From the NCBI GenBank assembly GCA_020850355.1, contig JADZEX010000036.1:1-50328 (forward strand): DNA of 50,328 nucleotides, given 5' to 3'. Every line of letters starts with the position of its first letter. Positions within the stretch are counted from its first letter, which is position 1. Below, in pieces: positions 2,759 to 19,569 of this stretch. This DNA comes from Fimbriimonadaceae bacterium (lineage in GTDB: Bacteria; Armatimonadota; UBA10988). The notes below the pieces were generated by a model that was given only the letters and a program-made list of their open reading frames with translations, did no database searches and was not told the DNA's origin. Position numbers and translations under genes: made by a program.

Positions 2759-2770
2759 CGCGCCCTCCTA

Positions 2771-3193
2771 CTACTTGGCCTGCGGCCGCTTGGCGCCGTA
2801 CTTGCTGCGACCCTGCATGCGCTTCGCCACGCCGGTCGTGTCGAGCGTGCCGCGGATGATGTGGTAGCGCACCCCGGGCAGGTCCTTGACGCGGCCACCG
2901 CGGATCAGCACGACGCTGTGCTCCTGCAGGTTGTGGCCGATGCCGGGGATGTAGGCGAGCACCTCGCGGCGGTTGGTGAGCCGCACGCGGGCCAGCTTCC
3001 GCATGGCCGAGTTCGGCTTCTTGGGCGTCGTGGTGTACACCTTGGTACAGACGCCACGCTTCTGCGGCGAGCCGCCGGGAATCGGGTAGCTCTTCCGCTT
3101 CTTGCTGTTGAAGCCGCTCTGCAGGGCGGTCGCCTTGCTCTTGCGCACCTGCCGCTGACGGCCCTTGCGAATCAACTGATTGATGGTCGGCAT
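2771..3193 (-). CDS. rpsL: 30S ribosomal protein S12
   Basis: S12 sits at the decoding centre and contributes to accuracy; changes in it cause streptomycin resistance. The 140-residue protein carries [12 protein letters not shown] (the loop containing the K42/K43-type accuracy residues) and [13 protein letters not shown], which contains the lysine and the aspartate that RimO-type enzymes methylthiolate in many bacteria. Both loops look wild type, so there is no sign of streptomycin resistance from S12. The start is ATG 3193, with AAGGA eight bases upstream. It is the first gene of the str operon, behind a leader of about 260 nt and the promoter at 3459-3487. rpoBC, its common upstream neighbour, is absent. 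Confidence 0.98.
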
Positions 3194-3451
3194 TGCTGCA
3201 GTCCTTGCCCTTCACCCGCCGCCGGGACGCGCACAAAGGCGTCGGGCACCAAAACGCATGGCGGTCTGGCGTGGTCGCGCCGTGGCGGGGACCGGTGCCT
3301 GCCAGGCTGCGACACTCCCACCCGAAGACACGGTCCGATGGCGCCTGAGCGCCGTGCCTGCTCGCCTACTGCGCCGCTCGCAGCGGTTCGAACAATGCCC
3401 TTGGGGGTCGACGTCCGATTGTGGCGCGCCGGCCGCGCCGGCTTTCCACAA
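3194..3451 (-). other. Long 5' leader of the str operon, no gene seen
   Basis: If transcription starts about seven bases after the -10 element at 3459-3464, the rpsL mRNA has a leader of about 260 nt. With the promoters at 3459-3547 this makes a 370-base gene-free stretch up to 3564. The leader is GC-rich with several short self-complementary runs, such as GGCGCGCC near 3424. I find no credible leader peptide and no known riboswitch or ribosomal-protein target. A regulatory role is inference from length alone. Confidence 0.4.
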
Positions 3452-3458
3452 GGTCGGG

Positions 3459-3487
3459 AGTCTAGCATCGCGGGGGCATACGGTCAA
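3459..3487 (-). promoter_or_regulatory. Sigma70-type promoter of the str operon
   Basis: On the minus strand the sequence reads TTGACC (3487-3482), 17 bases, then TAGACT (3464-3459). Both hexamers are close to the consensus and the spacing is ideal. It points at rpsL and would start transcription near 3452. Confidence 0.7.
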
Positions 3488-3518
3488 GGGTTAACCTGGG
3501 AACTTGGCGGCGCTGTCG

Positions 3519-3547
3519 TTGACACGGCCGACGGCCGCGGCTATCGT
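3519..3547 (+). promoter_or_regulatory. Sigma70-type promoter of the glycosyltransferase gene
   Basis: A perfect -35 TTGACA (3519-3524) is followed, 17 bases later, by TATCGT (3542-3547), a 4/6 match to the -10 consensus. The start codon is at 3564, so the leader would be only about 10 nt. It is divergent from the str promoter, with 31 bases between the two -35 boxes. Confidence 0.6.
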
Positions 3548-3563
3548 GCCGCCGGAGGTCGTG

Positions 3564-4574
3564 ATGCCGTCCCCATACTATGTCTCGCAAGCCACCCTGC
3601 GGCAGCAGACCGGCGTGATCGTCCCGACCTGGTTCCCGGCGGACTACGACCCGGCCGCCGCCGCCGCGGTGCTGGCGACGACGCTCGCCGACACCGAACT
3701 GATTGCCGCGCCGCAACACTGTCTGGTGGTCTCCGACGGCTCGCAAGTCGCCGCGGACGCCGCCCGCGAGGTCCTGCCGGCGGCCTGCGTGGTGGTCTTG
3801 GAGGCCGGCCCGCACGGCAAGGGTGGCGCCGTCGCAGCCGGCTTCGAGCGGTTGCTGGAGCGGCCGGAGCTGCACTGGCTGGTGGTCCGCGACCACGACG
3901 GCGACCACTTCGCGGGCGACCTGCCGCGGCTCCAGCGGCTGGCCCTGCAGATGGCCGCCGAGGCTGGCGTGGAGCGGATCCTGGTGAACGGCGGGCGCCG
4001 CGACCCGGCCCGGCCGATGGGCTGGGTGCGGGCCGAGTATGAGCGGCTGGTGAACGCCGTGGTGTGGCGTGGCCTGGCCTACTGGGCGGCCTGGCAGGGC
4101 GCCGCGGTGGACGAGCGCTGGCTCGAGCCGGGGACCGCCGAGCCGGACCTGCAGAGCGGCTACAAGCTCTACAACCGGGCCGCCGCGGAGGCGCTGGTGC
4201 GGGCGACGGCGGGCAGCAGTTTCCCGCTGCGGCGCTGGGGCTGCGAGGTGCTCGCCACGGTGGAGGTGCTACGGGCCGGCGGGGCGGTCGGCGAGATCAA
4301 CCGACTCTGCCTCGACGAGCAGCCGTTGACGACCTACGAAGGCGACGCTTCGCGAGTCCAGATCCATGGCGACATCCTGCGGTGGGTGGCGCGCCGCCTG
4401 GCGCTGCCGGCGGGGGCAGTGGCGCTCTGGTTCGACGCCGCGCTGGCCCGGCGGCCGTTGCGGACCTTGCCCGGCCTGGTCGAGCCCCTGGCGGCCCTGC
4501 GGCGCTATGTGCTGGAGGGTCTGGCAGCCGCCGACCTGGCGGCTGCGCCGTCGCGGGCGCCCTGGATCGTCTAG
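3564..4574 (+). CDS. Glycosyltransferase family 2-like protein
   Basis: This is a 336-residue protein with GT-A/GT2 features. VIVPTWFP (18-25) is a nucleotide-binding beta strand. VSDGS follows near 56-60, and GPHGKGGAVAAGF (82-94) is the loop seen in polyprenyl-phosphate sugar transferases. VVRDHDGDH (107-115) supplies the DxD-type metal site. Later, GYKLYNR and WGCEVLATVEVLRAGG resemble the acceptor and catalytic-base region. There are no clear membrane segments, so a cytoplasmic or peripheral location is likely. Substrates cannot be told from the sequence. I start at ATG 3564, with GGAGG five bases upstream; the frame is open to 3504, but that part contains the promoter. The next gene starts at the very next base after the stop, implying translational coupling. 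Confidence 0.7.
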   Translation: MPSPYYVSQATLRQQTGVIVPTWFPADYDPAAAAAVLATTLADTELIAAPQHCLVVSDGSQVAADAAREVLPAACVVVLEAGPHGKGGAVAAGFERLLERPELHWLVVRDHDGDHFAGDLPRLQRLALQMAAEAGVERILVNGGRRDPARPMGWVRAEYERLVNAVVWRGLAYWAAWQGAAVDERWLEPGTAEPDLQSGYKLYNRAAAEALVRATAGSSFPLRRWGCEVLATVEVLRAGGAVGEINRLCLDEQPLTTYEGDASRVQIHGDILRWVARRLALPAGAVALWFDAALARRPLRTLPGLVEPLAALRRYVLEGLAAADLAAAPSRAPWIV

Positions 4575-5291
4575 GTGGCCCGCCGCTTCGCCAGCGAGGA
4601 AGCGCTGGCCGCGCTGGTGGCGCAGTGGCTGGAGGCGGCCGACTGGGAGGTCTACGCCGAAGTCCAGCCGCAGCGCGGTGCGCCGGTCGCGGACCTGGTG
4701 GCCCGGCGGCGAGGCGTGCTGTGGGTCGTCGAGTGCAAGTGCAGCCTGTCGCTGGCGCTGCTCGACCAGGTCCACCACTGGCTGGGCCGCGCGCACTATG
4801 TCTCGCTGGCCTGCCCCCGCCCGACCCGCGGGCGCGGCGCGGGGGTCACTGCGTCCTGGCTGCGGGCGGTCGGCGCGGGCTGGCTGGAGGTCGTCGGCGG
4901 GCCTGGCGGAGCGGTTCAGGAGCGGGTCAAGCCGCGGGTCTTGCGAACCGCGGCCAGCGGTCCGCTGGCCGCCGCGCTGCGCGAGCCGCAGAAGGCTTAC
5001 GCGGCGCCGGGCAACCCCCACTCGCGCCGCTGGACGCCGTTCCAGGAAACGGCCCAGGCGTTGCGGCTGCTGGTGGCGGCCGAGCCTGGGGTGCTCTTGA
5101 GTGAGGCCGTGGCGCGCCTGCCCCACCACTACCGTTCCGCCCGCACGGCCCGCGGGACGCTCAGCAAGTGGCTGGCGCAGGGGGTCATCAGCGGGGTCCA
5201 CCAGCGCAAAGTCGCCGGCCGGCTGCGGCTCTACCCCGATGTCGGCTGGGAGTCCTGCGAGCCGCCGCACCAGTCGTCGAAGATGGTGTAA
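4575..5291 (+). CDS. PD-(D/E)XK nuclease-like / winged-helix protein
   Basis: This is a 238-residue protein of no family I can name. Residues 1-80 look like a PD-(D/E)XK nuclease core: a helix with E8/E9, then PVAD (D40), a beta hairpin, and VVECK (E53, K55), followed by LLDQVHHWLGRA. Residues 150-225 look like a winged helix, with LSEAVARLP, a recognition helix around RTARGTLSKWLAQG, and a basic wing. It could be a DNA-binding nuclease or a non-catalytic relative. The GTG start directly follows the TAG of the glycosyltransferase gene, with no obvious Shine-Dalgarno, so translation probably depends on the upstream gene. The last 61 bases overlap, tail to tail, the end of the RND pump gene. 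The fold call is from motifs only. Confidence 0.6.
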   Translation: MARRFASEEALAALVAQWLEAADWEVYAEVQPQRGAPVADLVARRRGVLWVVECKCSLSLALLDQVHHWLGRAHYVSLACPRPTRGRGAGVTASWLRAVGAGWLEVVGGPGGAVQERVKPRVLRTAASGPLAAALREPQKAYAAPGNPHSRRWTPFQETAQALRLLVAAEPGVLLSEAVARLPHHYRSARTARGTLSKWLAQGVISGVHQRKVAGRLRLYPDVGWESCEPPHQSSKMV

Positions 5292-8200
5292 GTGACCGGC
5301 ACGATCAGCAGCGTCAAGAGCGTCGAGAGCAGCAGCCCGCCGATCACGGCAATCGCCATCGGGGCGCGGATCTCGGCGCCCTTGCCGATCTTAAGGGCCA
5401 CCGGGAGCATCCCGCAGACGGTCGCGGCGGTGGTCATCAGGATCGGCCGCAGCCGGCGCGCGCCGGACTCGACCACGGCGGCCGCCCGCGCGAGACCCTC
5501 GCGGCGGAGGTGGATGGTGTGGTCGACGAGCAAGATGGCATTCCGGACGACGATTCCGAGCAGCAGGATCAGGCCGATCCCCGAGACGATGCTGAGCGAG
5601 GAGCGGGTCAGCACCAACGCCAGCAGCGCCCCGGCGATGGCCATTGGGACGGACAGCATGATGGTCAACGGATGCACCGCGCTGTTGAACAACGCGGCCA
5701 TGATGCCGTAGACCAGCAACGCGCCGAGCAGCGCCGTGGCGGTCATGTACTTGGCCGAGGCGGCCATCGTCTCGGCGTCGCCCCGCCAGCCCCACCGCAG
5801 GTCGGGGTGCCGGTTGGTGGCCGGCGCTGGCCCGCGGTCGGGCGCCACGCCGAGCTCCGCCAGGACCGCGGTGATGGCGGTGCGCGCCTCGCCCAGGCTG
5901 ACGCCCTCGGCGAGGTAGGCCTTGAAGTTCAGGTCGCGCTGGCCGTCGCGGCGGTCGATGCGGGTCGGGCCGGTGCCCGGGCGCACCTCGGCGACTTCGG
6001 CCAGCCGGCCGACCCGGCCGGCCGCGGGGGCCACCGGTAGCCGCTCCAGGTCGGCCGGCAGCCGGCGGTCGAAGTCGCGCAGGCGGAGCCGCACCGGGAG
6101 CAGCTCGCCGCCGATCCGAGCGGTCAGGCTGCTGTCGCCCTCGAGGGCGGCGCGCAACTCGCGGCCGACGCTGCCGGGGTAGACGCTCAGCTCGCCGGCC
6201 TCGCGACGCTTCAGGCGGACCTGCAGCTCCGGCTGGCCGAGCCGCCAGGAGACGTCGGCGTCGAGCAGTTGCGGCAGGCTGTCGAGCCGGCGCAGCAGCT
6301 CCTCGCCGACGCGGCTCATCGAGTCCAGGTCCTGCCCGTAGAGACTCAGGTCGACCGGCGCCCCGGCGCCGCCCCAACCCTTGACGGCAATGACCTGCCA
6401 GCGGGCCTGGGTCTGGCGGCGCAACAGCTCGCGCAGCCCGGCGGCGACGGCGGCATCGCTGCGGCGGCGGCCGTCGCGGCGGCGGCCGAGCAGCCGGTCA
6501 AGCAGGTCGCGCCGGTTGCGCAGGGTGATGTTGATCTGTGCGTAGCTCGGGCCGTAGCGGCTGACGACCCCAAACCCGGCCTCGATCCGGCCGAGCGTCG
6601 TGAACAGCGTGGCGACCTCGGGCACCGTCGCCAGTTGGGCCTCGGCGGCGGCCACGACGCGCTCGGTGGCGGCGTTGGTGGCCCCGGCTGGGAGCTCGAC
6701 GTTGACCACGATGGTGCTCAGGTCGGCGGCCGGGATGAAGTCCACGCCCAGCGCCCGCCAGGCCAGCAGGCCGGCCAGCGCGAGCACCGTCCAGCCGCCG
6801 GCGATGGTCCGCCAGCGGTGCCGCAGGGCGACCTCCAAGATGGCGCGGTAGCGGGACTCCAGCCGGCCGTAGCCCTCCGGCGGCCGCTGCTCGGCGACGG
6901 TCAGCGGGTGCCGCTGGTACCAGACCGCGGCGAGCATCGGCACGAGGGTGTAGGCGACCAGCAGCGAGAGCGCCGCCGCGGCCGCGACGACCAGGCCGAA
7001 GTCCTGGAAGAACTGCCCGACGATGCCCTGCATCACGGCGATCGGCAGGAACACCGCCAGGTCGACCAGTGTGGTCGAGGTGTCGGCGAGCGCGATGTCG
7101 TTGCGTCCGTTGAAGGCCGCCAGCGCGGGCGGCTCGCCGCGTTGCAAGCGCCAGGTGATGGCCTCCAGGCAGACGATGCTGTCGTCGACCAGGATGCCCA
7201 CCGACAGCGCCAGCCCGAGCAGCGACATCTGGTTGAGCGTCGTGTCGCCGTAGCCGATCAGCGCGAAGGTGCCGACCAGACAGACTGGGATGCTGGTCCC
7301 CACAATCACGGTGCCGCGCCAGTTGCGCAGGAAGACGTAGATGATGCTGGAGCAGAGCACGACCCCCAGCAGGATGCTCAGGTTGACATCGCTGAGCGCC
7401 TCGTGGACGGTCGCGGCGGTGTCGCGGGCGATCCGCACTTCGAGGTCGGCGGGCAGCCCGGCCGCGGCGATCGCGGCGCGGACGCCGGCGGAGACCTGCA
7501 CGGTGTTGGCGCGGCCCTGCTTGGTGACGATCAGCCCCACCGCCGGGCGTTGCTGCAGCCGGATCCGCACGTCGTCGTCGCGGCTGCCGAGGGTCACCGT
7601 GCCGAGGTCGCCGAGGCGCAGCGGGCGGGCCGGCTGCCCAGCCAGGGGGCGCCGCTGCCGCAGCAGGCTGCTCGGATCGAAGCGCGGCGGCAGCGGCACG
7701 GCGCGCAGGTCGTCGAGCGAGGTGAACTCGCCGACCACGCGCACCGCGCGCTCGCGGTCGCCGCTCTGCAGGTTGCCCGCGGGGACGTTGCGGCCGGCCG
7801 CCTGGAGCGGTTCCAGGACCTGCGAGAGGGTCAGTTGCGCGGCCAGCAGCCGCTCGCGGTCGAGCGCCACCTGGACCTCGGCGGTCTGCCCGCCGAGCAG
7901 GCTGACCTCGCCGACGCCCGGCACGGCGCGCAGCCGCGGGCGCAGTTGCAGGTCGGCCAGGCGGCGCAACTCGGCCAGCGGGCGGTCGCCGGAGAGGCCC
8001 AGGAAGAGTACCGGCTGAGCGTTGATGTCGAGCCGCCGAAAGACCGGGTCCTGCAGCTCGGTGGGCAGCTTGCCGCGGATTCCGTCGAACGCCTCGCGAC
8101 AGCGCGGCAGCGCGGCGGTGACGTCGGTGCCTTCGACAAACTCGACGAAGCAGTGCAGGTAGCTCTCCTGCGACACGGTGTACAGATGCAGGACACCGTT

Positions 8201-8422
8201 CACGCCGCGCAGCGCGTCCTCCAGTGGCGCGGCGACGAGGCTCTCGACGGTGCTGGGCGCGGCGCCGGGGTAGATGGCACTGATGCTGACCGTCGGGATG
8301 TCGGCCTGGGGGTTCAGGTCGACCGGCAACCGCCGCCAACTGATCACCCCCGCCACGAGCAGCGCCACGGTCAGCAGGACGGTGAGGAAGGGACGCTCGA
8401 TGGCGTAGCGCGTGAGGCCCAT
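5231..8422 (-). CDS. RND efflux pump inner-membrane subunit (HAE1/AcrB-like)
   Basis: This is a proton-driven inner-membrane exporter of the resistance-nodulation-division superfamily, 1063 residues and full length. The N-terminal helix (9-29) is followed by the porter domain with PQADIPTVSISAIYPGA. TM4 carries GILVDDSIV with the paired aspartates of the proton relay, and a second porter half and TM bundle repeat the plan (GIVVRNAILLVDH). The DD motif is typical of HAE1 and multidrug pumps; heavy-metal HME pumps usually differ here. Its TGATG junction overlaps the adaptor gene by one base, so both are co-translated. No outer-membrane TolC-like gene is in the window. The end overlaps the nuclease-like gene by 61 bases. 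The substrate is not predictable; hydrophobic toxic compounds are the usual guess. Confidence 0.92.
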   Translation of the reverse strand: MGLTRYAIERPFLTVLLTVALLVAGVISWRRLPVDLNPQADIPTVSISAIYPGAAPSTVESLVAAPLEDALRGVNGVLHLYTVSQESYLHCFVEFVEGTDVTAALPRCREAFDGIRGKLPTELQDPVFRRLDINAQPVLFLGLSGDRPLAELRRLADLQLRPRLRAVPGVGEVSLLGGQTAEVQVALDRERLLAAQLTLSQVLEPLQAAGRNVPAGNLQSGDRERAVRVVGEFTSLDDLRAVPLPPRFDPSSLLRQRRPLAGQPARPLRLGDLGTVTLGSRDDDVRIRLQQRPAVGLIVTKQGRANTVQVSAGVRAAIAAAGLPADLEVRIARDTAATVHEALSDVNLSILLGVVLCSSIIYVFLRNWRGTVIVGTSIPVCLVGTFALIGYGDTTLNQMSLLGLALSVGILVDDSIVCLEAITWRLQRGEPPALAAFNGRNDIALADTSTTLVDLAVFLPIAVMQGIVGQFFQDFGLVVAAAAALSLLVAYTLVPMLAAVWYQRHPLTVAEQRPPEGYGRLESRYRAILEVALRHRWRTIAGGWTVLALAGLLAWRALGVDFIPAADLSTIVVNVELPAGATNAATERVVAAAEAQLATVPEVATLFTTLGRIEAGFGVVSRYGPSYAQINITLRNRRDLLDRLLGRRRDGRRRSDAAVAAGLRELLRRQTQARWQVIAVKGWGGAGAPVDLSLYGQDLDSMSRVGEELLRRLDSLPQLLDADVSWRLGQPELQVRLKRREAGELSVYPGSVGRELRAALEGDSSLTARIGGELLPVRLRLRDFDRRLPADLERLPVAPAAGRVGRLAEVAEVRPGTGPTRIDRRDGQRDLNFKAYLAEGVSLGEARTAITAVLAELGVAPDRGPAPATNRHPDLRWGWRGDAETMAASAKYMTATALLGALLVYGIMAALFNSAVHPLTIMLSVPMAIAGALLALVLTRSSLSIVSGIGLILLLGIVVRNAILLVDHTIHLRREGLARAAAVVESGARRLRPILMTTAATVCGMLPVALKIGKGAEIRAPMAIAVIGGLLLSTLLTLLIVPVTYTIFDDWCGGSQDSQPTSG

Positions 8423-10407
8423 CAGTCGACCTCGAGCGGCGCCCCGTCGTAGAGGGCCAGACCCTCGGCGACGACCACCGGCGCGCCGACGCGGAGACCG
8501 TCGAGCACCTCGACCGCCTGCGGCGTGCGCAGTCCGAGCGTCACGGCCTGGCGGCGGGCGCGGCCCTGTTCCAGGAGGTAGACCGCCGCCCCGCCGTCGC
8601 TGCCGTCGAGCACCGCGGCGGCCGGCACCTGCAGCGCCGCGGCGGCCGTACTGACGGCGATCGCCGCGCTGGCGTGAAGACCGGGCGGCAGGTCGGGATG
8701 CTGCACCACGATGCGCACCTTGAAGCTGCGGCCATCGCCCTCGGCGACAGCGGCGACCTCGCGGACGGTGCCGCCGAAGGGCCGTGGCGCGCCCGGCACG
8801 GTGACTTCGGCGCGCTGCCCGACGGCGATCTGCAGGCGCTGCTCGGGGGTTGCCAGGGCCTCCAGATCGGCCGTCGCGGCGGCTTCGATCACGGCCACTG
8901 GCATACCCGGCAGAATGGTGTCGCCGGGCCGCACGGCAAGCTGCGTGACGGTGCCGCTGACGGGCGCCAGGAGGGTCGTGCGGCTGAGCTGGAAGCTCGC
9001 CAGGCGGTGCGCCGCCTCGGCCTCTTGCAGCCCCGCGCGGGCGGCCAGCAGATCGGCGGCGAGGACCTGCTCCTGGGCCAGCGTGGCGCCCGCCTCGGCT
9101 TCGCCGGCGCGGGCCATCGCGGTGTTGGCGGCGGCCGCGGCGGCCTGGCCCTGGGCCACGGCGACGCGCGCCAGGGCGGCTTCGGCGGCGGCCACGCCGG
9201 CGTCGGCCTGGGCGACCTGCGCCGCCGCCGCGCGGGAGGCCGCGGCGGCCACCTCGACGCGATCGGCGCGGGCCTCGGCGGCGGCCTGCCGACCCGCTTC
9301 GGCGCGCGCCAGTTGGGCCTCGGCGGCAGCGATCTCGCCGGCCGAGACGCGCGTCCGGCCGCGCCCGACCTCGGCCGCCTGGACCCCGGCCTGGGCCTCG
9401 CCGACCAGCGCGGCGGCAGCCTGCCGCTCGGCGGCGGTGGCCCCCGCGGTGGCCTTGGCCAACTGCGCCTCGGCGGCCTTGAGCTGCTGCTCGGCGATGC
9501 CTAACTGGGTGCGGGCACCGGCCACGGTGTCGCCGGCGATGCCGCCGTGTTGGAGCAGGTACTCCAGATCGGCGACCTCGCGCTGGGCCTGCTCGCGCCC
9601 CAGGCGGGCCTGCTCGACCTGCGCCCGGGCCGCGGCCAGATCCTCGACGCGGGCCCCGTCGCTGGTCCGGCGGGCATTGGCCTGGGCCGCCTCGAGCCCG
9701 GCCGCGGCCCGGCTGACATCGGCCGCCGCGGCGGCGGTGGCGAGGTCGGCGCCGGCCTGGGCCCGTTGCAGGTCGGCGCGGGCGGCGCGCACGCCGGCTT
9801 CGGCCGCCGCCAGATCGGCGGTGGCCTGCGTCTGCGCCAAACTGACGCCCTTGGCGGCCTGCGCGGCCTGGGCCTGGGCGGCCTGCAGACCGGCGCGCGC
9901 GGTGGCCAGGTCGGCGATGGCCTGCGCGCGGGTCAGCGGCACGCCCAACCGCGCCTGGGCCTCGGCCGCCTCGGCGGCGCGACGCCCGCCCTGGGCCTTG
10001 CGCCGTTGCGCCTGTCCGGCCTGCCGCGCGGCGAGTTGCCCGGCCTGAGCCTTCGCCAGCAAGGCCCGCGAGGCGGCGACGCCCGCGGCGGCGCGGGCGA
10101 TGTTGCCGCGCAACTCGGCGTCGTCGAGCTGCACCACCAACCCGCCAGCCGTCACCACGCCGCCCTCGACGACCGCCACCCGCAGCACGCGCGAGGGCAC
10201 CTGCGCGGTCAGCTCGACGCGGGCAGTTGGCTGCAGCACGCCGTCGACGACGGTCGTGGCGGTCAGTGGCGCGCGCCGCACCGGGACGACCTGCACCCGC
10301 AGCGGTCGCGGCGGATTGGCGGCCGGCGGCTCCCGTCGCCCGGACAGGGCGAACGCCAGCAAGGCCAGGCCAAGCAGGCCACCGAGGATTGGTAGGAGCC
10401 GTTTCAT
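8422..10407 (-). CDS. RND/HlyD-type periplasmic adaptor with very long alpha-hairpin
   Basis: This membrane-fusion protein joins the RND pump to an outer-membrane channel. It is 661 residues, where AcrA-type adaptors have about 400. Order: N-terminal membrane anchor or signal (5-21), beta-barrel/lipoyl half (38-98), an almost pure Ala/Glu/Gln/Arg helical stretch (about 100-475), second lipoyl half (TTLLAPVSGTVTQL, 477-490, then VRPGDTI) and the beta-barrel and membrane-proximal part to 661. The hairpin tip motif LLQHGGIAGDTVAGAR sits near residue 290, the middle of the helical part, so each arm is about 180 residues. Within arm one, GVPLTRAQ...ADLATA and GVSLAQTQ...ADLAAA look like a duplicated unit. 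It starts 49 bases after rpoD and overlaps the pump start by one base. Confidence 0.9.
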   Translation of the reverse strand: MKRLLPILGGLLGLALLAFALSGRREPPAANPPRPLRVQVVPVRRAPLTATTVVDGVLQPTARVELTAQVPSRVLRVAVVEGGVVTAGGLVVQLDDAELRGNIARAAAGVAASRALLAKAQAGQLAARQAGQAQRRKAQGGRRAAEAAEAQARLGVPLTRAQAIADLATARAGLQAAQAQAAQAAKGVSLAQTQATADLAAAEAGVRAARADLQRAQAGADLATAAAAADVSRAAAGLEAAQANARRTSDGARVEDLAAARAQVEQARLGREQAQREVADLEYLLQHGGIAGDTVAGARTQLGIAEQQLKAAEAQLAKATAGATAAERQAAAALVGEAQAGVQAAEVGRGRTRVSAGEIAAAEAQLARAEAGRQAAAEARADRVEVAAAASRAAAAQVAQADAGVAAAEAALARVAVAQGQAAAAAANTAMARAGEAEAGATLAQEQVLAADLLAARAGLQEAEAAHRLASFQLSRTTLLAPVSGTVTQLAVRPGDTILPGMPVAVIEAAATADLEALATPEQRLQIAVGQRAEVTVPGAPRPFGGTVREVAAVAEGDGRSFKVRIVVQHPDLPPGLHASAAIAVSTAAAALQVPAAAVLDGSDGGAAVYLLEQGRARRQAVTLGLRTPQAVEVLDGLRVGAPVVVAEGLALYDGAPLEVD

Positions 10408-10456: not shown

Positions 10457-11575
10457 CTACTGCCCGATGTAGTCGCGGAGCTGCCGCATCTTGCTGGGGT
10501 GGCGCAGCTTCTTGAGGGCCTTGGCCTCGATCTGCCGGATCCGCTCGCGGGTCACCTCGAAGTGCTGCCCGACCTCTTCGAGCGTCCGCGGCCAGCCGTC
10601 GTCGAGGCCGTAGCGCATCCGCAGGACGTCGCGCTCACGCTGGCTGAGGGTGTTCAGCACGGCGTCGAGTTGCTCCCGCAGGACCATGTTGGAGGCCATG
10701 TCGGCCGGCGAGACGCAGCGCTCGTCTTCGATGAAGTCGCCGAGGTGCGAGTCTTCCTGCTCGCCGATGGGCGTCTCGAGGCTCAGCGGCTCGGGCGCGA
10801 TGCGCTGGATGTCGGCGACCCGCTCCGGCAACATGTCGAGCTCGGAGGCGAGTTCCTCGACGGTCGGCTCGCGGCCCAGCGCCTGCACCAGCTCGCGCTT
10901 GGTCTTCAGCAGCTTGTTGATGGTCTCGACCATGTGGACCGGAATCCGGATGGTCCGGGCCTGGTCGGCGATGGCGCGGGTGATCGCCTGCCGGATCCAC
11001 CAGGTGGCGTAGGTGCTGAACTTGTAGCCCTTCCGGAAGTCGAACTTCTCGACGGCGCGGATCAGCCCAATATTGCCCTCCTGGATCAGGTCCAGGAAGC
11101 TCATGTTGCGGCCGGTGTAGCGCTTCGCGATGCTCACCACCAGGCGCAGGTTGGCCTCGGTCAGCTTCTGCTTGGCTTCCTGGTCGCCCTGCTCGATGCG
11201 CCGCGCCAGTTCGAGCTCTTCTTCCTGGTTCAGCAGCGGCACGCGGCCGATGTCGCGGAGGTACATCCGGACCGGGTCGTCCAGCGGCACGCCCTCGCCG
11301 ATGTCGAAACGTTCGGCAAGGTCTTCGTCTTCGTCGTCATGGTCGACCGGCGCCGCCCCGGGCGAGGGACGCTGCGTTTCGTCCTCTTCGTCTTCCAGCA
11401 GGTCGATCCCGAGGGTCTCGAGCAGCCGTAGCGCCTCTTCGGTGTCTTCGTCGGGCTCCAGCTCTTCGTGCGCCGCGAGGTACGCGCGGACCTGCCCGAG
11501 GGTGACGCCCCCGGCGGCCTTGGCCATCTTGAGGAGTTCCGCCAGCGCTTCCTGCAGCTCTCGTGTCGCCATCAT
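10457..11575 (-). CDS. rpoD: RNA polymerase principal sigma factor
   Basis: This is the housekeeping sigma70/SigA, 372 residues, about the size of Bacillus SigA and without the long non-conserved insert of proteobacterial RpoD. A short region 1.1 and an acidic linker lead into [12 protein letters not shown] (region 1.2). Region 2 has [14 protein letters not shown] and the -10 recognition part with [15 protein letters not shown]. Region 3 follows, and region 4.2 is [20 protein letters not shown], the -35 reader. The frame is open to 11788, but that part is dnaG shadow. The ATGATG at 11575 overlaps the dnaG stop, so the ATG at 11572 is an equal alternative. dnaG-rpoD is the classic macromolecular-synthesis pair, here without rpsU. 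Confidence 0.97.
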
Positions 11576-13359
11576 CGCATTCCGTCGGTGCGCAGCAGCG
11601 CCTGCCGACTTCGCTCCAAGTTTTGCAGCACCTCGGTGAGTTGGCGGGACAGGGCCACCAGCTCGTCGAAGTCCTCGGACGCCAACCCCTCGCGCCGCGC
11701 CCGCAACTCGGCCGCCTGGCGCTCCAGCGCTTCGCAGGCCAGCTCGTCGAGCAGGCGCTGCAGCGGTGCGGTCTCCGCCGGCTCGCAAGCCAAGCGGGCG
11801 GCCAGGACGCTGGCGGCCTCACCGCAGCGCTCCAAGGCGGCCGCCAGGTCACCGCCCGGGGGCAACGCCGCCAACGCCGCGAACAGCTCGCGATGCACCG
11901 GGCTGACCAACTGCTCGCCCGCCGCACTCGCCGCGGTCACCAGAATCGGTTGTTGCACCAGCACGGCCAGCAACCGTTCGGCAACCAGTTCGCCGCGCCC
12001 CGCGGTGGCCGCGGCCCGCGGGGTCTGGCGCGCGCCGCCCCGTACGGTGCCACGCCGTTGCCGCAACGTCCGCGTCAGGGTGCGCTCGAACTCCTCTTGC
12101 AACCCAATTGCCTGACCTGCCCACCACTCGGCCACCCGCTGGACTAACTGAGCCTGACGCGGGGCGTCGGTGATGTCAGCCAAGACCGCCGTGACCGCCG
12201 CCAGGACCGCTTCCTGTTGCCCGCCAGCACTGCCATCACTGGCCGCCAGAGCGGCCCGCAGCCGGTAGTCGACCAGATCGGGCGGGTCCTGCAGCAACTG
12301 CGCGAAGGCCGCGCTGCCGGCGCTGCGGAGGTAGTCGTCGGGGTCCTGCCCGCCGGGCAGCGAGAGCACCCGGCCGTCGACGCCTTCTTCGATAAACGCC
12401 GCGGCCGCCCGTTCGGTTGCCGCGACGCCGGCTTTGTCGCCATCGTAGCAGAGGACCACCTGCGCGGTGTGGCGGCGCAAGAGCCGCAGATGCTCGCCAG
12501 TCAACGACGTGCCGAGCGTGGCGACGGCGTTGCGTTGGCCGTGTTGATGCAGCGCGATCACGTCCATGTAGCCTTCGACCACCAGCACCTGTTGCCCGAG
12601 ATGGTCGAGCGCGTGGGGCAAGCCGTAGAGCAGCCGGCGCTTGTTGAAGATCTCCGACTCCGGGCTGTTGAGGTACTTCGGCTCGTCATGCGGATCGATC
12701 ACCCGGCCACCGAACCCGACCACGCGGCCTTGGGGGTCGACGATTGGGAACATCACCCGGGCGCGGAAGCGGTCGTACCAGCCCTCGCCGCGCTCGCGGC
12801 GCTTCAGCAGCCCGGCCTCCTCGGCGTCGGCCAGACTGAGTCCCTGCCGCTGCAGGTAGCGGGTCAGCGAGTCCCAGCCGGGCGGCGCGTAGCCCAGGCG
12901 GAACTGCCTGCTGATGGACGGGGTCAGCCCGCGCTGCGTCAGGTACTCGCGCGCCACCGCACCGCCCTCACCGTTCCAGAGCGCCCGCTCGTAGAGCTCG
13001 GCGGTCAGCCGCAGCAGTTCGCCGAGGCGGTCCCGTCGGTCGGCCCGCCGGACCTCGCTCTGGCTGGTCTGGAGGGTGAACCCCAACTGGTTGGCCAACA
13101 GTTCGGCAGCCTCCCGGAAGTCGAGCTTCTCGGCCAGCATCACGAAGCGGAAGACGTCGCCCCCGGTGCCGCAGGCGCCGCGGCAGTACCACAGGCCCTT
13201 CTCGGGGTTGACGTAGAACGACGGCGTCTTCTCGGTGTGAAAGGGACACAGCCCACGGTGTTCCAGCCCGGCCTTCTGCAGCCGCACGTGGCGACCAATC
13301 ACTGCCAGCAGGTCGACCCGCTCGCGCAGTTCGTCTTTGGTGATCGACTGCAGCGCCAC
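11572..13359 (-). CDS. dnaG: DNA primase
   Basis: DnaG makes the RNA primers for Okazaki fragments. It is 595 residues. The N-terminal zinc-binding domain has [11 protein letters not shown] and [14 protein letters not shown]. The TOPRIM catalytic core has [22 protein letters not shown] and [10 protein letters not shown], with the conserved Glu and the DGD acidic residues. The C-terminal third, weakly conserved, is the helicase-interacting region. The start is GTG 13359, with GAGG about eight bases before it. The stop overlaps the rpoD start (ATGATG), indicating coupled translation. A strong hairpin at 13376-13410 separates it from the upstream secreted-protein gene, so dnaG likely has its own promoter, which I could not place. 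Confidence 0.97.
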
Positions 13360-13375
13360 CCTGAATCCTCGCGAT

Positions 13376-13410
13376 CGCAGTGGCGGGGCGGCGCGGGCCG
13401 CCCCGCTGCG
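13376..13410 (-). terminator. GC hairpin after the 900-residue secreted protein gene
   Basis: Arms CGGGGCGGC/GCCGCCCCG around a GCGG loop are extended by CGCAG/CTGCG across a three-base bulge. It lies five bases after the stop of the upstream minus-strand gene and before dnaG. No U-tract follows, so termination strength is inferred. Confidence 0.55.
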
Positions 13411-13414
13411 ACGC

Positions 13415-16117
13415 TCAGCGGTAGTTCAGCCGGACCACCTGCAAGGCCGTGACATGCTTATCCTGCAGCACCATGTTGAGGTTGCCGACCGGCCGGCCGA
13501 CCTCATCGCGGGCGTACGAGATGAAGTTCAGGTTGGGCTGCTGCTCGGCGACGTCGTTGATGAACTCGTCGTAGAGCAGCGGCGGGCCGTAGCGCAGCAT
13601 CACGTCGCGCAGGCTGCTGCCGATCATGATCCCGCGCTTCGTGCGGGCACCCTCCCAGGGCGAGCCCATCACCGAGATCTGGGTGCACATGCCGTCGCTG
13701 TCGAGCCCGAACTCGACCTTCGTGTCGCCGACCTGCAGTCGTCCCCCGACCAGCTTCGGCTTGTTGCGGAAGGTGTAGTCCCAGCGGAACTGCGTCTCGG
13801 GCACGGCGGTCGTCACAAGACAGAGCCCCGGGGCCGCCCGGGCGCCGAAGGCGATGTTGTAGCCGGTCTGCCCGGTCAGGTCGCCGTAGACCAGGTTGAG
13901 GGCCGCCGCCAAGCTCTCCCGGCTGACGCTGCCGGCGCCGCCGCCGCCCCCGCCGCCGCTGGCGCCGCCGGAGTCGCCGGGCGCCGCCCCACCGGCATCG
14001 GGGGGCGCGGCTCCGCCGCCCGAGGGTCCGGCCGGAGCCGGCCCGCCACCCGCCGGCGCCGGGCCAGCGCCACCACCGCCGCCGCTGACGGCCGCCCGCA
14101 GGCTTTCGAGGCAGAGCGGCTCAAGGTTCATCGTGTCGCGGCCGTAGGAGAACGGCATCGGGTAGCGGCAGAGCACATCGCCGGCCGGCTGCGCCAAGCT
14201 GACGCCGCCGGTCGTACCGCCGGCGCCACCGGCCTCGCCCGGACCGCTCGGACCGCCCGCCGCGGCGGGTCCGCCAGCCGCACTGGGCATCGCCGGGGCC
14301 TGCGCCTGGGCCAGCCCGGCGCGACCGGCCGGCAGGCCCGGCTGCATCGCCACCAGGCCGGCCGCCGGCGTGGCGATCACCGGTCCCGGCATGTCGTACC
14401 CACCACCCGTGCCGGGTCGCAGGTTCGGCGCGCCGCCGCCGCTGGCCCCCTCGATGGCGTCGGCCTCGCTGGCCTGACCGCCGATCTGGTTGGCCGCCGC
14501 AGCGAACAGGTTGCCGGTCCCTTCACCGAAGATCGTCGCGTCGATCGGCACGCCGGGCGGCCAGTCACCGGGATCCGGCGGCGCGGTGATCCGCGACAGG
14601 CGGTGGTTCGGCTGCTCGATGGCGTGCGGCTCACCGTACACCAAACGGCCGTTGCGCGGGCTGCGAATGGTCAGCAACTGCTGCGCGTTGAGCCCGAGCT
14701 GGACCCCGCCGAGCTGCCGCTCCTGGGCGTTCGGCCGCGGCTCGATGATCATCCGGATCACCCGCCAGACCTTCGGCCGGGGGTGATCCAGCAAGAAGCC
14801 GACGTTGTTGGTGTCGTAGTAGTGGATCAGCAGGTAGCGCCCGTAGAACGACTCCCAGCCGTCGGGCCAGCCGTAGCGGTCGAAGACCCGCTCGAGGCTG
14901 TCGCCAAGGGCGATCCCGCGTTGGCCATTCGGCGCGCTCGAGGTCCGCGCGCCGTCCCAGGTGCTGCGGCTGTTGGCGACGGTGATTCCGTCGACCTGCC
15001 AGGTGTAGAAGTTGACGGTCACCGAGAGCCAGGTGTCGATGCCCATCTTGTAGCAGAAGACGATGTCGCGACCGGGCTGACCGACGTGGAAGACGTGGTA
15101 GTAGATCCGGAAGTTGGCCAGGAAAGCCTGTGCCTGCGAGCGCTGCCGCAGCGTCGCGCTGGCCGCGGCCACTTCCAGCATCTGTTCCCGCAGGGTGGTC
15201 ACTTCCTGCAGCATCCGGGCGATCTCTTCGACCAGCCGCAACTGGTCGCCCAGCGTCGCATCGCCCTGGTTTTGCAGCACCCGCCGGCGCTCTTCCCACT
15301 GGAAGACCCGCGTCTCGAGGGCGTTGATGCGCTGCATCAGCTTAATGAACTCACGCTCCGCGGCGTCGGGGGGAATCTCCGAGGCCTTGAGCTGTTCCAT
15401 GTAGGCCGAGGTGACCGCCGTCTCAAACGAGCCAACCGCGGCATTGACGGCGCCGTCGATGCCGCCGCCACCACCACCGCCGCCACCGCCACCGCTCGGG
15501 CCACCGGGCGCCGAGGGGCCGCTGGCGCCGGGAGCGGCCGGCCCGCCGGGCGCTGGCGGCGGCGGGGCCGCGCCCTGCGCCTGGGCGATGAACTCGTGAA
15601 TCCGCTGCTTCGCCAGCGGGTCGTCAATCTGGTCGGGCGCCATCCCCCGCGCGACGCCGGAGGGCGGGGCCGAGGCCGAAGAGGCCGATGGTCCCCCGCC
15701 CCCACCCCCGCCGCTGGGGCCGCCGCCGGAACCACCGGGTGCGCCGGGCGCCCCGGCGGCCCCGCCGCCACCGCCGCCGAAGCCCCCACCGCCGGCGGCG
15801 TTGCCGCGGCCGTAGGTGCCGAGGTAGAAGTTGTACTGCCCGTTGCGCCCCACCCCGCTGCCGGTGAACAGCGGCGGCCGCGTGCCGAGCCGCATGATGA
15901 TGTGGTCCGGCATCTGGTAGACGCGGCGCAGCTTGCCCTGTTGCGCGGTCTGGATGTTGTCGAAGTTCCACTTGCCGGTGATGCTGCGGCCATGCCAGCC
16001 GAGCTTGACCCCCGCCAACTGGTCCTCGTAGAAGGGCAGCGTATCGAGTTGCTGCGCCGGGGCCGCCCCCAGTGCCAGCAGCACGAGCACCCCGAGTTCG
16101 AGCCGTTGCCGCCTCAT
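13415..16117 (-). CDS. Secreted Gly/Pro-rich protein with a duplicated domain
   Basis: I do not recognise this 900-residue protein as a named family. A signal peptide (1-21, cleavage after APA) precedes a folded stretch with GVKLGWHG and WNFDN. Low-complexity Gly/Pro/Ala runs (about 105-155 and 185-222) follow, then a helical, coiled-coil-like segment (about 240-330). A domain at about 350-457 contains GIALGDSLERVFDRYGWP. More Ala/Gly/Pro linker precedes a C-terminal domain (about 785-898) with GIMIGSSLRDVMLRYGPP. The two domains share W-x-GART, G-x-x-GxSL-x-x-V-x-x-RYG-x-P and flanking strands, so they look like an internal duplication, loosely reminiscent of BamE/OmlA-type 'GxS..V..xxG.P' motifs. 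The ATG start has GAAGGAG five bases upstream. A good promoter lies at 16221-16249. Confidence 0.75.
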   Translation of the reverse strand: MRRQRLELGVLVLLALGAAPAQQLDTLPFYEDQLAGVKLGWHGRSITGKWNFDNIQTAQQGKLRRVYQMPDHIIMRLGTRPPLFTGSGVGRNGQYNFYLGTYGRGNAAGGGGFGGGGGGAAGAPGAPGGSGGGPSGGGGGGGPSASSASAPPSGVARGMAPDQIDDPLAKQRIHEFIAQAQGAAPPPPAPGGPAAPGASGPSAPGGPSGGGGGGGGGGGIDGAVNAAVGSFETAVTSAYMEQLKASEIPPDAAEREFIKLMQRINALETRVFQWEERRRVLQNQGDATLGDQLRLVEEIARMLQEVTTLREQMLEVAAASATLRQRSQAQAFLANFRIYYHVFHVGQPGRDIVFCYKMGIDTWLSVTVNFYTWQVDGITVANSRSTWDGARTSSAPNGQRGIALGDSLERVFDRYGWPDGWESFYGRYLLIHYYDTNNVGFLLDHPRPKVWRVIRMIIEPRPNAQERQLGGVQLGLNAQQLLTIRSPRNGRLVYGEPHAIEQPNHRLSRITAPPDPGDWPPGVPIDATIFGEGTGNLFAAAANQIGGQASEADAIEGASGGGAPNLRPGTGGGYDMPGPVIATPAAGLVAMQPGLPAGRAGLAQAQAPAMPSAAGGPAAAGGPSGPGEAGGAGGTTGGVSLAQPAGDVLCRYPMPFSYGRDTMNLEPLCLESLRAAVSGGGGGAGPAPAGGGPAPAGPSGGGAAPPDAGGAAPGDSGGASGGGGGGGAGSVSRESLAAALNLVYGDLTGQTGYNIAFGARAAPGLCLVTTAVPETQFRWDYTFRNKPKLVGGRLQVGDTKVEFGLDSDGMCTQISVMGSPWEGARTKRGIMIGSSLRDVMLRYGPPLLYDEFINDVAEQQPNLNFISYARDEVGRPVGNLNMVLQDKHVTALQVVRLNYR

Positions 16118-16220
16118 CCGCGACTCCTTCGCGCCTGGCGCCGCCCCAGCGTCGGATGCCGGTTGGCTGCGCCGTTAGACAACCCGCCGCGGCGGCCGGT
16201 TGCCACCCGTCGCGCCGGTC

Positions 16221-16249
16221 AGTCTGCCATGCGCCGAACGCCCTGTCAA
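16221..16249 (-). promoter_or_regulatory. Sigma70-type promoter of the 900-residue secreted protein
   Basis: On the minus strand a perfect TTGACA (16249-16244) is followed after 17 bases by CAGACT (16226-16221), one step from TAGACT. It would give a leader of about 97 nt before the ATG at 16117. It lies in the gap after the polytopic membrane protein gene. Confidence 0.6.
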
Positions 16250-16265
16250 GCAGCGGCGCCGGCGG

Positions 16266-18272
16266 TTAGTCGAAGCCCAGGCTCGGCGCCTGCACCTCAA
16301 CCTGGAAGAGCGCCTTCCCGAGATAGCAGACCAGCGTCCAGAAAAAGGCCATCGTGAAGGTCCCCAGGACCAGCCCCAGGAAGAAGGGCATCGCGCGGCG
16401 GTAGGCCTTCATGCCGCCGCTCTTGAGGATCATGCCCTTCAGGCACCAGGTCAGAAACGCGCTGAACCAGAACACCAGCAAGGTCCACGAGGCGCAGACG
16501 GCGTAGCCCAGCGGGTGCAGCGGCCACCAGACCTGCGTCGCGCGCAGAAAGACCAGCCCGCTGCAGACGACGATCCCGACCAGGTACGAGGGCAGCGCCA
16601 CCGGCGAAGTGCGGACCTGTTGCTGCATCGCCGTGACGGCTTCCTTGACCTGCCACTCGGCATTGCCGCGGGGATAGCCGTAGATGCTGATCTGCCCGAG
16701 GTCGTGGCTGATGTTCAGGAAGAAGTAGCAGCCGGCGATCATCGCCCCGACGACACCCACAAAGATCGGCAGCAGCAGATTGCGCGGCCGGTACCGCAGC
16801 TCGCGGGCGAGCTTCTGGTTGTCCAAGAAGTTGCTCAGCAGGACGCCCCGCAGGTCGCGCGTGAGGACCGTGTCGAGCATCGCCAAGACGGTGATGTTGC
16901 GCGCCCCGAGGCTCCAGTGTGGCCGCACCAGGCGGATCAGGTCGAGCGGCCGGAAGCTGGCCTCGGTCTGTAGCAGCCCCGCCTCGGCCACCCCGCGGCT
17001 GAGGACCAGCGCCACCACGAAGAGGTAGACCCCCAGTTCGACAAAGCCCAGCCAGGCGTCGAGGCCGGCGTACCAGCACCAGAGGATCGAGCCGAGGAAG
17101 CTGAGCAGCAGCCCCCAGACCGCCACGCGGTAGGGGATCACCTCGTCGTTGGCGCCGTCGCTGAGCAGGCTGCGGCCGCGCTGCACGGCACCGCGCAAGA
17201 CCGGCCCGAAGTGCGTCCAGCCGGTACGCAGGAGGTAGACCACCAGCACGGTGTAGGCCCCGGCGACCTGGTAGCCGATGTAGAGCTGCGTCGGGTACTG
17301 CGGCATGGAGACCAGTTGGTAGGCCAACTGGGTGGCGATCACGTCGGTCAGGCGGGTGACCAGGAAGAAGAACCAGAGGCTGAACAAGAGGTCGCTGCTG
17401 AGGAAGTAGAAGAAGCCCACCGCGCCGAACGAGATCACCACGCGGGTGAAGTAGATCCCGTTCCAGGGCTTCGTGGTAAGGAACTGGTTGACGTTCCAGG
17501 AGAGCGCGATCTCGGGCACGCTGGGAATGTTGGCGTGCAGGCCGTTGATGGTGTAGACCAGCACCGGCAGCGCGGCGCCGAACCAGGTCAGGCGATTCCG
17601 GAAGAGGTCCCCCGCGCTCTGTTCGTCGATCAGCGCCAGCGGCAGCGTGACGAGCGGAAAGACCAGCTTCTCGTTGTCGGCCCACTGTCGCCGCAGAATC
17701 ACCGCCAGGCAGAGGAACGACAGGTAGACCAGACTCAGCAGCCCCGACCAGCTCAGCAGGGGCCCGAGCCAGAGTCGCCAGGGCACCTTGGCGTTGCCCT
17801 CGTGGTAATCGACGGCGGCGTCCTGCCGGTCAACGCCCTCGGGATCGAAGACCACCAGCCACGGTTCGAGGTTCTTCGCGAACAGCTCCATGTACTGGTT
17901 TTCGGCCGTCGCGTAGTAGCTGGCGTGGATCAGCGGCGGGATCAGCTTCTCGATGGTCCCGCGGCTGGACATCATCACGGTGATGGTCATCACGACGTAC
18001 AGCGGGAACAGATCGCGCGCCGCCAGGAAGCGGATCCCGACCAGCCACTTCAGCAGCCGGGACAGCAGCACCAGCAGGAACAGCCCGCCGAGCGCTGCCG
18101 GGGAGAGCTGCATGATGCCGATCTGCAGCTTCTGCAGGACCATGTCGCCATACACGGTGATGTAGGCCATCGCCGCGATCAACGGCCCGGCGACCAGCAG
18201 CGCGCGCAGCCGCATCGTCGCGAGCGGCGGCTCGGCGGTCGGGTCAGGACTCAGCTCGTGGTTCATCGGCAT
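16266..18272 (-). CDS. Large polytopic membrane protein (possible DUF6785/DUF6784 family)
   Basis: This is a protein of about 668 residues with roughly a dozen or more hydrophobic segments, starting at LLVAGPLIAAMAYITVYG and ending near TFTMAFFWTLVCYLGKAL. A soluble stretch after the early helices contains SYYATAENQYMELF and NLEPWLVVFDPEGV. I recall similar proteins annotated as DUF6785/DUF6784, distantly like OPT-type transporters, in Armatimonadota and Planctomycetota; that assignment is from memory and tentative. The function is unknown. I start at ATG 18272 (MPMNHELS), with ATG 18266 as an alternative. The longer open frame upstream lies inside the FAD gene and is its shadow. The gene begins five bases after the FAD-oxidoreductase stop, so they are likely one operon and may act on the same compound. 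Confidence 0.65.
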   Translation of the reverse strand: MPMNHELSPDPTAEPPLATMRLRALLVAGPLIAAMAYITVYGDMVLQKLQIGIMQLSPAALGGLFLLVLLSRLLKWLVGIRFLAARDLFPLYVVMTITVMMSSRGTIEKLIPPLIHASYYATAENQYMELFAKNLEPWLVVFDPEGVDRQDAAVDYHEGNAKVPWRLWLGPLLSWSGLLSLVYLSFLCLAVILRRQWADNEKLVFPLVTLPLALIDEQSAGDLFRNRLTWFGAALPVLVYTINGLHANIPSVPEIALSWNVNQFLTTKPWNGIYFTRVVISFGAVGFFYFLSSDLLFSLWFFFLVTRLTDVIATQLAYQLVSMPQYPTQLYIGYQVAGAYTVLVVYLLRTGWTHFGPVLRGAVQRGRSLLSDGANDEVIPYRVAVWGLLLSFLGSILWCWYAGLDAWLGFVELGVYLFVVALVLSRGVAEAGLLQTEASFRPLDLIRLVRPHWSLGARNITVLAMLDTVLTRDLRGVLLSNFLDNQKLARELRYRPRNLLLPIFVGVVGAMIAGCYFFLNISHDLGQISIYGYPRGNAEWQVKEAVTAMQQQVRTSPVALPSYLVGIVVCSGLVFLRATQVWWPLHPLGYAVCASWTLLVFWFSAFLTWCLKGMILKSGGMKAYRRAMPFFLGLVLGTFTMAFFWTLVCYLGKALFQVEVQAPSLGFD

Positions 18273-18276
18273 CGGG

Positions 18277-19569
18277 CTATTGCATCCAATTGGCCAACTC
18301 CTCCAGGCCGCCTGCCACGGCGGCGAACGGCACCGCCGCTGGCTGGCAGCCGCGGGCGGCGGCCAGCGCGGCGCAGACCCCGGCGGCCTGACCCAGCGCC
18401 ACGGCGTTGCCGGTGACGCGGTAGCTGCTGTGGGCGATGAAGTCGCCACTGAGGCAACGCCCAGCCAGCAGCAGGTTGTCGACGTCGGCCGCCAGCAGCG
18501 CGCGGAGCGGAATGTCGTAGGGTTGCGCCCGCACGCCCTCACCGCTGTAGCCCTGGTGCTGCGCCGGGTTGGTGGCGTGGACATCGACCGGGAAGGTCAC
18601 CCGGCAGACGGCATCGTCGTGCCGCGCGCCGGTGATCAGGTCGTCCGCGGTGACGGTGTACCGGCCGGCGATGCGCCGCCCCTCGCGGACGCCGATCTGG
18701 GCGCCGGTGGCGACGATCCGCAGGCCGGCCCAGGGCCCGCCGAGCGCCCGCAGGGCGGTCGTCAGGCCGAACACCTCGGCCCGCGCCCGGCTGGTCGCGG
18801 CGCTCAGGGCGCTGGCGTCGTCGCAGCGCACGCCGTACTCGTGGTTGGCCATCATCGCCACCAGGCCGCCGGGCAGGGCGAACAGCGTTGGTTGCGAGTA
18901 GGACGGTTGCACGCCGGCCCGCGCCAGCTCCGCCAGGAAGCGCACTTTGCACTGCCCGACCTGCGGTTGGCCGTGGAGCACCCCGATCGCCTGCAGGGCC
19001 GCGTGGTCGAGTCCGCCCAAGAGGGCCATCAACGACAGCGGCTGGCACTCTCCGCTGCCCGGCCGACCGACCTCGTAGCGACAGCCGGCCCAGGCCGCGA
19101 GGTCGCCGTCGCCGGTGCAGTCGATGCACACCGGCGCGCTCCAGGCCTCGCGTCCCGACTTGCTCTCGGTGAGCACGGCGGTGACCTGGCGGTCGGCGAC
19201 CCCGGCGGCGACGACGCGGGTGTGCAGCCGCACCGCCACGCCGACCTCGGCGCACAACTCGTCGAGCACCAGTTTCATGGTCTCGACGTCGTAGGCGTAG
19301 GAGAGCTGCCCGTCGCGGGCCGCCAGGCGGGCCAGGATCAGCGGCAGCAGGCCGCGCTTGTGCTGGTGATCGAGCAGCCAGCAGAGCGCTCCGCTGGTCC
19401 AGATGCCGCCAAGCTGGCCATGCGTTTCGAGCAACCGCACCCGCGCCCCGAGGCGGGCGGCGGCAAGCGCCGCGGCGACCCCGGCCGGCCCGCCGCCCGC
19501 GACGATCACGTCGCACTGCGCCACCAGCGGCAGCTCCCGCGGCGGTTCGTGGTACGTCGCAGCGCTCAC
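18277..19569 (-). CDS. FAD-dependent oxidoreductase (FAD_oxidored type)
   Basis: This is a 430-residue flavoprotein. The N-terminal Rossmann motif is DVIVAGGGPAGVAAALAAARLG, followed by LLETHGQLGGIWTSG. The middle has CIDCTGDGDLAAWAG, and the C-terminal FAD loop has PLRALLAADVDNLLLAGRCLSGDFIAHSSYRVTGNA. This layout fits the FAD_oxidored family, common next to sugar-catabolic genes in Planctomycetota and Armatimonadota, where substrates are mostly unknown. No secretion signal is evident. The start is GTG 19569, overlapping the stop of the upstream lipoprotein gene by four bases (GTGA). The frame is open far upstream, but that is lipoprotein-gene shadow. It is followed after four bases by the polytopic membrane protein. 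Confidence 0.85.
   Translation of the reverse strand: MSAATYHEPPRELPLVAQCDVIVAGGGPAGVAAALAAARLGARVRLLETHGQLGGIWTSGALCWLLDHQHKRGLLPLILARLAARDGQLSYAYDVETMKLVLDELCAEVGVAVRLHTRVVAAGVADRQVTAVLTESKSGREAWSAPVCIDCTGDGDLAAWAGCRYEVGRPGSGECQPLSLMALLGGLDHAALQAIGVLHGQPQVGQCKVRFLAELARAGVQPSYSQPTLFALPGGLVAMMANHEYGVRCDDASALSAATSRARAEVFGLTTALRALGGPWAGLRIVATGAQIGVREGRRIAGRYTVTADDLITGARHDDAVCRVTFPVDVHATNPAQHQGYSGEGVRAQPYDIPLRALLAADVDNLLLAGRCLSGDFIAHSSYRVTGNAVALGQAAGVCAALAAARGCQPAAVPFAAVAGGLEELANWMQ

Follow-up and report, generated by a model that had tools for sequence, protein, structure and literature searches.

In the macromolecular synthesis operon of E. coli, dnaG and rpoD are preceded by rpsU, and the gene 5' of dnaG varies in other bacteria, being yqxD or serp1129 in Bacillota (PMC2824700). 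The Armatimonadota locus analyzed here shares with this operon the dnaG-rpoD order and the presence of an extra 5' gene, but the product of that gene is an exported protein and not a ribosomal protein or one of the genes described in PMC2824700. For the protein itself, the closest described folds are CAP_assoc_N (PF14504), found at the N-terminus of secreted Bacillota CAP/SCP proteins (PDB 4ifa and 4h0a), and DUF4309 (PF14172), represented by YjgB of Bacillus subtilis (PDB 4ygt). No paper on the function of either domain was found in open-licence PMC.

The window is the whole stretch of DNA that was analyzed, 50,328 nucleotides from a Fimbriimonadaceae bacterium of the phylum Armatimonadota. 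X is used here as the label for the Armatimonadota family gene or protein to which the gene at 13415-16117 belongs. With a probability of about 0.6, X is explained overall as an exported, CAP_assoc_N-like envelope protein carrying a loop, encoded as the 5' partner of dnaG-rpoD and doubled in the window. As read from sequence and models, the features of the locus are as follows.

13415..16117, minus strand: whole gene X, a 900-aa secreted protein made of two fused family units in the order A1-linker-B1-A2-linker-B2 (duplication scores, profile and A-segment matches)
16055..16117, minus strand: signal peptide, residues 1 to about 21 (sequence and family trend)
15872..16027, minus strand: A1, opening part of repeat 1 in unit 1 (E-x-QLAGVKLG ... 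YQMPDHII), residues about 31-82 (duplication and family matches)
15422..15799, minus strand: low-complexity loop in unit 1, rich in Gly (37%), Pro (14%) and Ala (19%), residues 107-232 (composition)
15113..15421, minus strand: helical, charged, putatively coiled-coil-like segment inside the unit 1 insertion, residues 233-335 (composition, 2% Gly and 28% charged)
14948..15100, minus strand: strands probably completing repeat 1 of unit 1, residues about 340-390 (family alignment and homologue model)
14738..14926, minus strand: B1, repeat 2 of unit 1 (GIALGDSLERVFDRYGWP ...), residues about 398-460 (duplication score and profile)
14603..14722, minus strand: A2, opening part of repeat 1 in unit 2 (ERQLGGVQLG ... 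YGEPHAIEQP), residues about 466-505 (duplication and family matches)
13913..14596, minus strand: insertion in unit 2 rich in Gly, Pro and Ala, residues about 508-735 (composition; modeled as disordered)
13652..13795, minus strand: strands completing repeat 1 of unit 2, residues about 775-822 (model strands at pLDDT about 80-91; profile)
13418..13636, minus strand: B2, repeat 2 of unit 2 (GIMIGSSLRDVMLRYGPP ...), residues about 828-900 (duplication, model and profile)
11572..13359, minus strand: dnaG (DNA primase), starting 56 bp after the end of X and its conserved downstream neighbor (gene-order comparison)
10457..11578, minus strand: rpoD (primary sigma-70 factor), following dnaG, with an approximate start codon (gene-order comparison)

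The first-pass annotation of this gene, made from the sequence alone, proposed a duplicated domain, a reading that would fall if the copies gave no pairwise alignment above background. Residues 335-470 and 755-900 align far above chance, with a score of 72 against 27.1±4.5 for shuffled sequences and none of 1000 shuffles reaching it, and the W-x-GART, G-x-SL, V and RYG-x-P positions fall in register. The duplication thus stands, and the limits first given to it (about 350-457 and 785-898) do not, because the segments that precede the linkers are duplicated as well. The segment after the signal peptide (EDQLAGVKLG..., residues 31-82) aligns to the segment after domain 1 (ERQLGGVQLG..., residues 466-505) with a score of 49 against 23.5±4.3, again unmatched in 1000 shuffles. 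Since both these segments and the domains are duplicated, the order A1-linker-B1-A2-linker-B2 follows for the protein. The A segments also match the equivalent segment of distant family members, with z up to 10-17, and score weakly when A1 and A2 are compared alone to the family profile (9.0 and 2.4 bits). All elements by which the family is defined, namely an E-x-QLxG[VI]xLG segment, a loop, W/F-x-Y strands and a GIxLG...YGxP repeat, occur twice in this exported protein. In full length, it scores 65.2 bits on a family profile from which it had been left out, where shuffled versions reach no more than 6.3.

Matches in the rest of the phylum measure about 220-400 aa and contain a single A-linker-B unit. 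The A and B segments of the window protein each match such single-unit proteins, and the window protein is thus two tandem family members fused head to tail. Adjacent unfused tandem pairs of X are found in several families (L064, L066, L070, L075, L096, L097, L098, L106, L118-L122, L131 and L137). Such neighboring pairs are frequent across the phylum, and the simplest origin of the window gene would accordingly be the fusion of one. In a tree of B domains, whose columns are too few to date or prove the window fusion, the tandem copies of family f9 form two groups, one upstream and one downstream.

The X family is close to universal in Armatimonadota and nearly confined to it. Of 291 genomes of the phylum, 248 contain a match to a 96-residue B-domain query and 263 a match to a 14-sequence profile; the profile count includes 188 of the 194 that are of good quality (190 less two outside hits). 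Only two of 106 genomes outside the phylum give a profile match; both are weak and linker-less, and remain weak leads because the E-values are per genome. One (L116, 1276-1755) is a 159-aa two-repeat protein with no loop, and the loop-free domain that it represents may belong to a wider, unnamed family. The other (L117, 49-1701) is a 550-aa protein that carries one B-like repeat at its C-terminus and, with an HExxH sequence, is metalloprotease-like in appearance. A scan of contigs, in which a 5-row alignment found matches and a diverse 14-row alignment was too divergent, returned nine named records, all of them Armatimonadota or unclassified metagenome bins. No relatives were found in the viral contigs searched, and no literature on this family was found in open-licence PMC. 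When the intact protein or only its B domain served as query, sequence searches of Pfam, NCBIfam and PDB gave nothing convincing.

In the window, X lies adjacent to dnaG-rpoD, on the same strand and 5' of both genes, as in the macromolecular synthesis operon. The order X-dnaG-rpoD is present in 32 of 40 inspected loci with a median gap of about 28 bp, in all nine named records, and in 92 of the 119 genomes that list both coordinates; a second copy of X in G255 would give a 93rd genome with X 5' of dnaG. Gaps between X and dnaG are mostly 3-120 bp, with 7 bp in genome G107, and loci lacking this order are concentrated in families f9, f10, f20 and f21. The family as computed, in both membership and gene order, is held to be virtually certain. 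Judging from this arrangement, X is most likely co-transcribed with dnaG-rpoD. The first-pass annotation had credited the gene with a good promoter of its own; this was not borne out by a consensus scan, which finds 0 sigma-70-like sites in 13200-16400 and is weak evidence either way in GC-rich DNA. Downstream of rpoD, on the minus strand (5231-10407), an RND-type efflux transporter (5231-8422) and a periplasmic adaptor (8422-10407) can be recognized by eye.

Gene order alone can persist without functional coupling, and X could be a housekeeping envelope protein that shares the dnaG-rpoD promoter by history, with no coupling to replication or transcription. This alternative has slightly less than an even chance. 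It agrees with the variability of the gene 5' of dnaG among other bacterial groups (PMC2824700) and with whole clades that have moved X away from dnaG while keeping it with envelope genes or alone, but most families of the phylum retain the order, at gaps between a few and about 100 bp. A stronger form of coupling is unlikely: X would be a phylum-specific envelope protein within the macromolecular synthesis operon, which would match the output of wall building to that of primase and the primary sigma factor; it would work via the large disordered loop inside its CAP_assoc_N-like domain, and the window lineage would have doubled it.

Export of X is well supported. The signal peptide named in the first-pass annotation is visible by eye in the window protein as MRRQR, a hydrophobic core and APA-QQ, and a crude rule finds a similar segment in 86 of 109 family ORFs. 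The same annotation suggested an envelope or surface role, which gains support from the near-universal signal peptides, from the secreted proteins among the nearest solved folds and from neighboring genes for a deacetylase and an S41 protease; such a role is considered probable. A gene for a TPR/polysaccharide deacetylase lies directly upstream of X in 13 loci of five families, and in L075 the upstream TPR protein carries a polysaccharide deacetylase domain (Pfam, 7.5e-39). The deacetylase gene is upstream of X with dnaG-rpoD downstream in L068, L069, L102, L105 and L124, and is found without dnaG-rpoD in f9. Both contexts are united at the L124 locus (genome G070, 2466-9874), which reads deacetylase-X-X-dnaG-rpoD. 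An S41/PDZ protease gene adjoins the X pair in three loci (f10 and f20), and in clades where X has left dnaG, either type of gene can be its neighbor. Deacetylase and protease are envelope functions, in keeping with the signal peptides of X. In the window, a DUF6785/DUF6784 permease gene (16266-18584, minus strand) is directly upstream of X in the place of the deacetylase gene. Similar permeases occur near X in L063, L127 and L128 with no conserved position, and the permease was rejected as a functional lead since it is not a conserved neighbor across loci.

These neighbors also bear on the proposal that X regulates or inhibits a cell-wall enzyme by binding the adjacent deacetylase or S41 protease, by analogy with CAP_assoc_N-CAP fusions. 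Both neighbors and the fold that X has in common with the N-terminal domains of CAP proteins speak for this role, but the deacetylase gene is missing beside X in most inspected loci and open-licence PMC yielded no paper on what CAP_assoc_N does. X could have such a role, though it is improbable.

The repeat and loop anatomy of the family is proposed with high confidence. The usual member is one unit, consisting of a signal peptide and two tandem repeats of about 55 residues, each with the order GIxLG-helix-YGxP-strand-strand-strand-strand, and the two repeats make up a single beta-rich domain of CAP_assoc_N/DUF4309 type. In the first hairpin of repeat 1 sits a disordered loop rich in Gly, Pro, Ala and Met, as a lasso off the domain and not as a linker of two domains. 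In a profile-profile comparison, repeat 1 with its loop excised matches repeat 2 with probability 97 and a score of 51.7, with 50 columns in register. Among column-shuffled profiles, 199 of 200 score at most 19.1; one gave 130, which is treated as a numerical accident and not as evidence. The AlphaFold2 model of a homologue (L054) has 115 of 191 residues at pLDDT>=90 and shows a helix and four strands, twice. Its Gly/Pro tract (residues 35-89, pLDDT <50) lies between strands 1 and 2 of repeat 1, and therefore the tract is an intradomain loop, in place of the spacer between domains that the first-pass annotation described. The model of the A2-linker-B2 half of the window protein has the same order of elements, with confidence at the two ends only and a mean pLDDT of 54. 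Because this model is mostly disordered and gave no match in a fold search against PDB, the window protein takes its fold assignment from the homologue.

By a simple rule for setting its boundaries, the loop has a median length of 126 residues in 76 ORFs (range 30-194), with 27% Gly, 14% Pro, 13% Ala, 8% Met and a low charge of 8%. It is typical of the family, and the giant Gly-rich spacers, at first called unusual, are no peculiarity of the window protein. A second Gly/Pro-rich tract forms a C-terminal tail in a few members (L054, 9650-10480, and L009, 751-1938). The presence of the tract throughout the family, together with its composition, fits a structural matrix or surface-layer protein in which this tract would be the silk- or collagen-like working part and the folded repeats only an anchor. 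Such a protein is quite unlikely, as the domain is conserved but the tract is unconserved in sequence and varies widely in length and composition, with only about 30-60 residues in some members.

The fold of X matches a known kind, that of the CAP_assoc_N/DUF4309 envelope proteins, as predicted from the L054 model. In a Foldseek search of PDB, this model retrieves 4ifa (2.9e-4) and 4h0a (9e-4), each with probability 1.00, followed by 4ygt (3.2e-3, TM 0.43 by target). X thus resembles CAP_assoc_N proteins in its best fold match, in its two-repeat G...YGxP pattern and in being secreted. Sequence likeness is fainter. With the loop left in, nine of 43 X members match CAP_assoc_N (best 9e-4), and with the loop excised, 11 of 14 do so weakly (best 3.8e-6; one of the 14, from L116, is linker-less by nature). 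The loop hides the family from standard domain searches, and once it is excised most of the members examined show a recognizable domain again. In PDB, the closest match by sequence is 4ifa as well, at a marginal E of 0.19, and it has a short turn at the position of the long Gly/Pro loop of X. The CAP_assoc_N model fails to hit the window protein at E<=10 or anything in the whole genome at E<=1. X also differs from CAP_assoc_N proteins in phylum and gene context, and in having no CAP domain, which is absent from the window protein and from the 43 members; most of these proteins end with the two-repeat domain. X was not filed as a member of CAP_assoc_N because no CAP domain follows and the curated Pfam cut-off of 29.3 bits is unreached where bits are shown (18.4 for the 224-aa L067 protein, loop excised). 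Likeness to DUF4309 is weak in sequence, with HMM matches in one of the 43 members (0.021) and two of the 14 loop-excised ones (0.009).

The first-pass annotation was instead reminded of BamE/OmlA, the outer-membrane assembly lipoproteins. X is exported to the envelope and shares with them a general sequence pattern, in which a glycine, a helix and G-x-P are followed by strands with W-x-Y and dG-x-V. This assignment is nevertheless very improbable. SmpA_OmlA (PF04355) has no match in the window protein at E<=10 or in the 43 members at E<=0.1, BamE is absent from the best 50 Foldseek hits of the L054 model, where CAP_assoc_N and DUF4309 proteins lead, and each repeat of that model has one helix and four strands and not two helices and three strands. 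X members are not generally lipoproteins, as a lipobox-like motif occurs in only four of 109 ORFs and the window signal peptide ends APA-QQ.

Finally, the reading of the window ORF as an artefact, either a GC-rich antisense frame or a chance likeness of a low-complexity protein, could draw on a 1006-aa open frame on the opposite strand and on the strong Gly/Pro bias, but it is refuted by the signal peptide, the phylum-wide conservation of the non-repetitive domains and of gene order, and orthologues of 866 and 900 aa in two same-family genomes (62-63% identity over window residues about 336-515), which make 13415-16117 a real gene.

For the favored explanation, an exported envelope protein at the head of dnaG-rpoD, a working model can be outlined. 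X would reside in the periplasm or cell wall, with one two-repeat domain per unit and a flexible lasso attached. The domain would bind or organize an envelope component, such as a cell-wall glycan or a wall enzyme like the neighboring TPR/polysaccharide deacetylase, and the loop would give it reach through the wall. Any specific glycan or wall-enzyme mechanism is doubtful; X sequences show no catalytic residues and no known ligand motif. Placement in the operon would tie the amount of X to growth, in proportion to the core of replication and transcription.

X is an undescribed, near-universal family of Armatimonadota with a fold of a known kind. As far as the tools and open-licence PMC papers tell, its loop insertion, phylum-wide operon position and fused double form are new. 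As a near-marker of its whole phylum, this exported protein offers a direct handle on the poorly studied envelope of Armatimonadota, and its linkage to replication and transcription genes through gene order offers one on whether growth coupling is a role of the variable gene 5' of dnaG.
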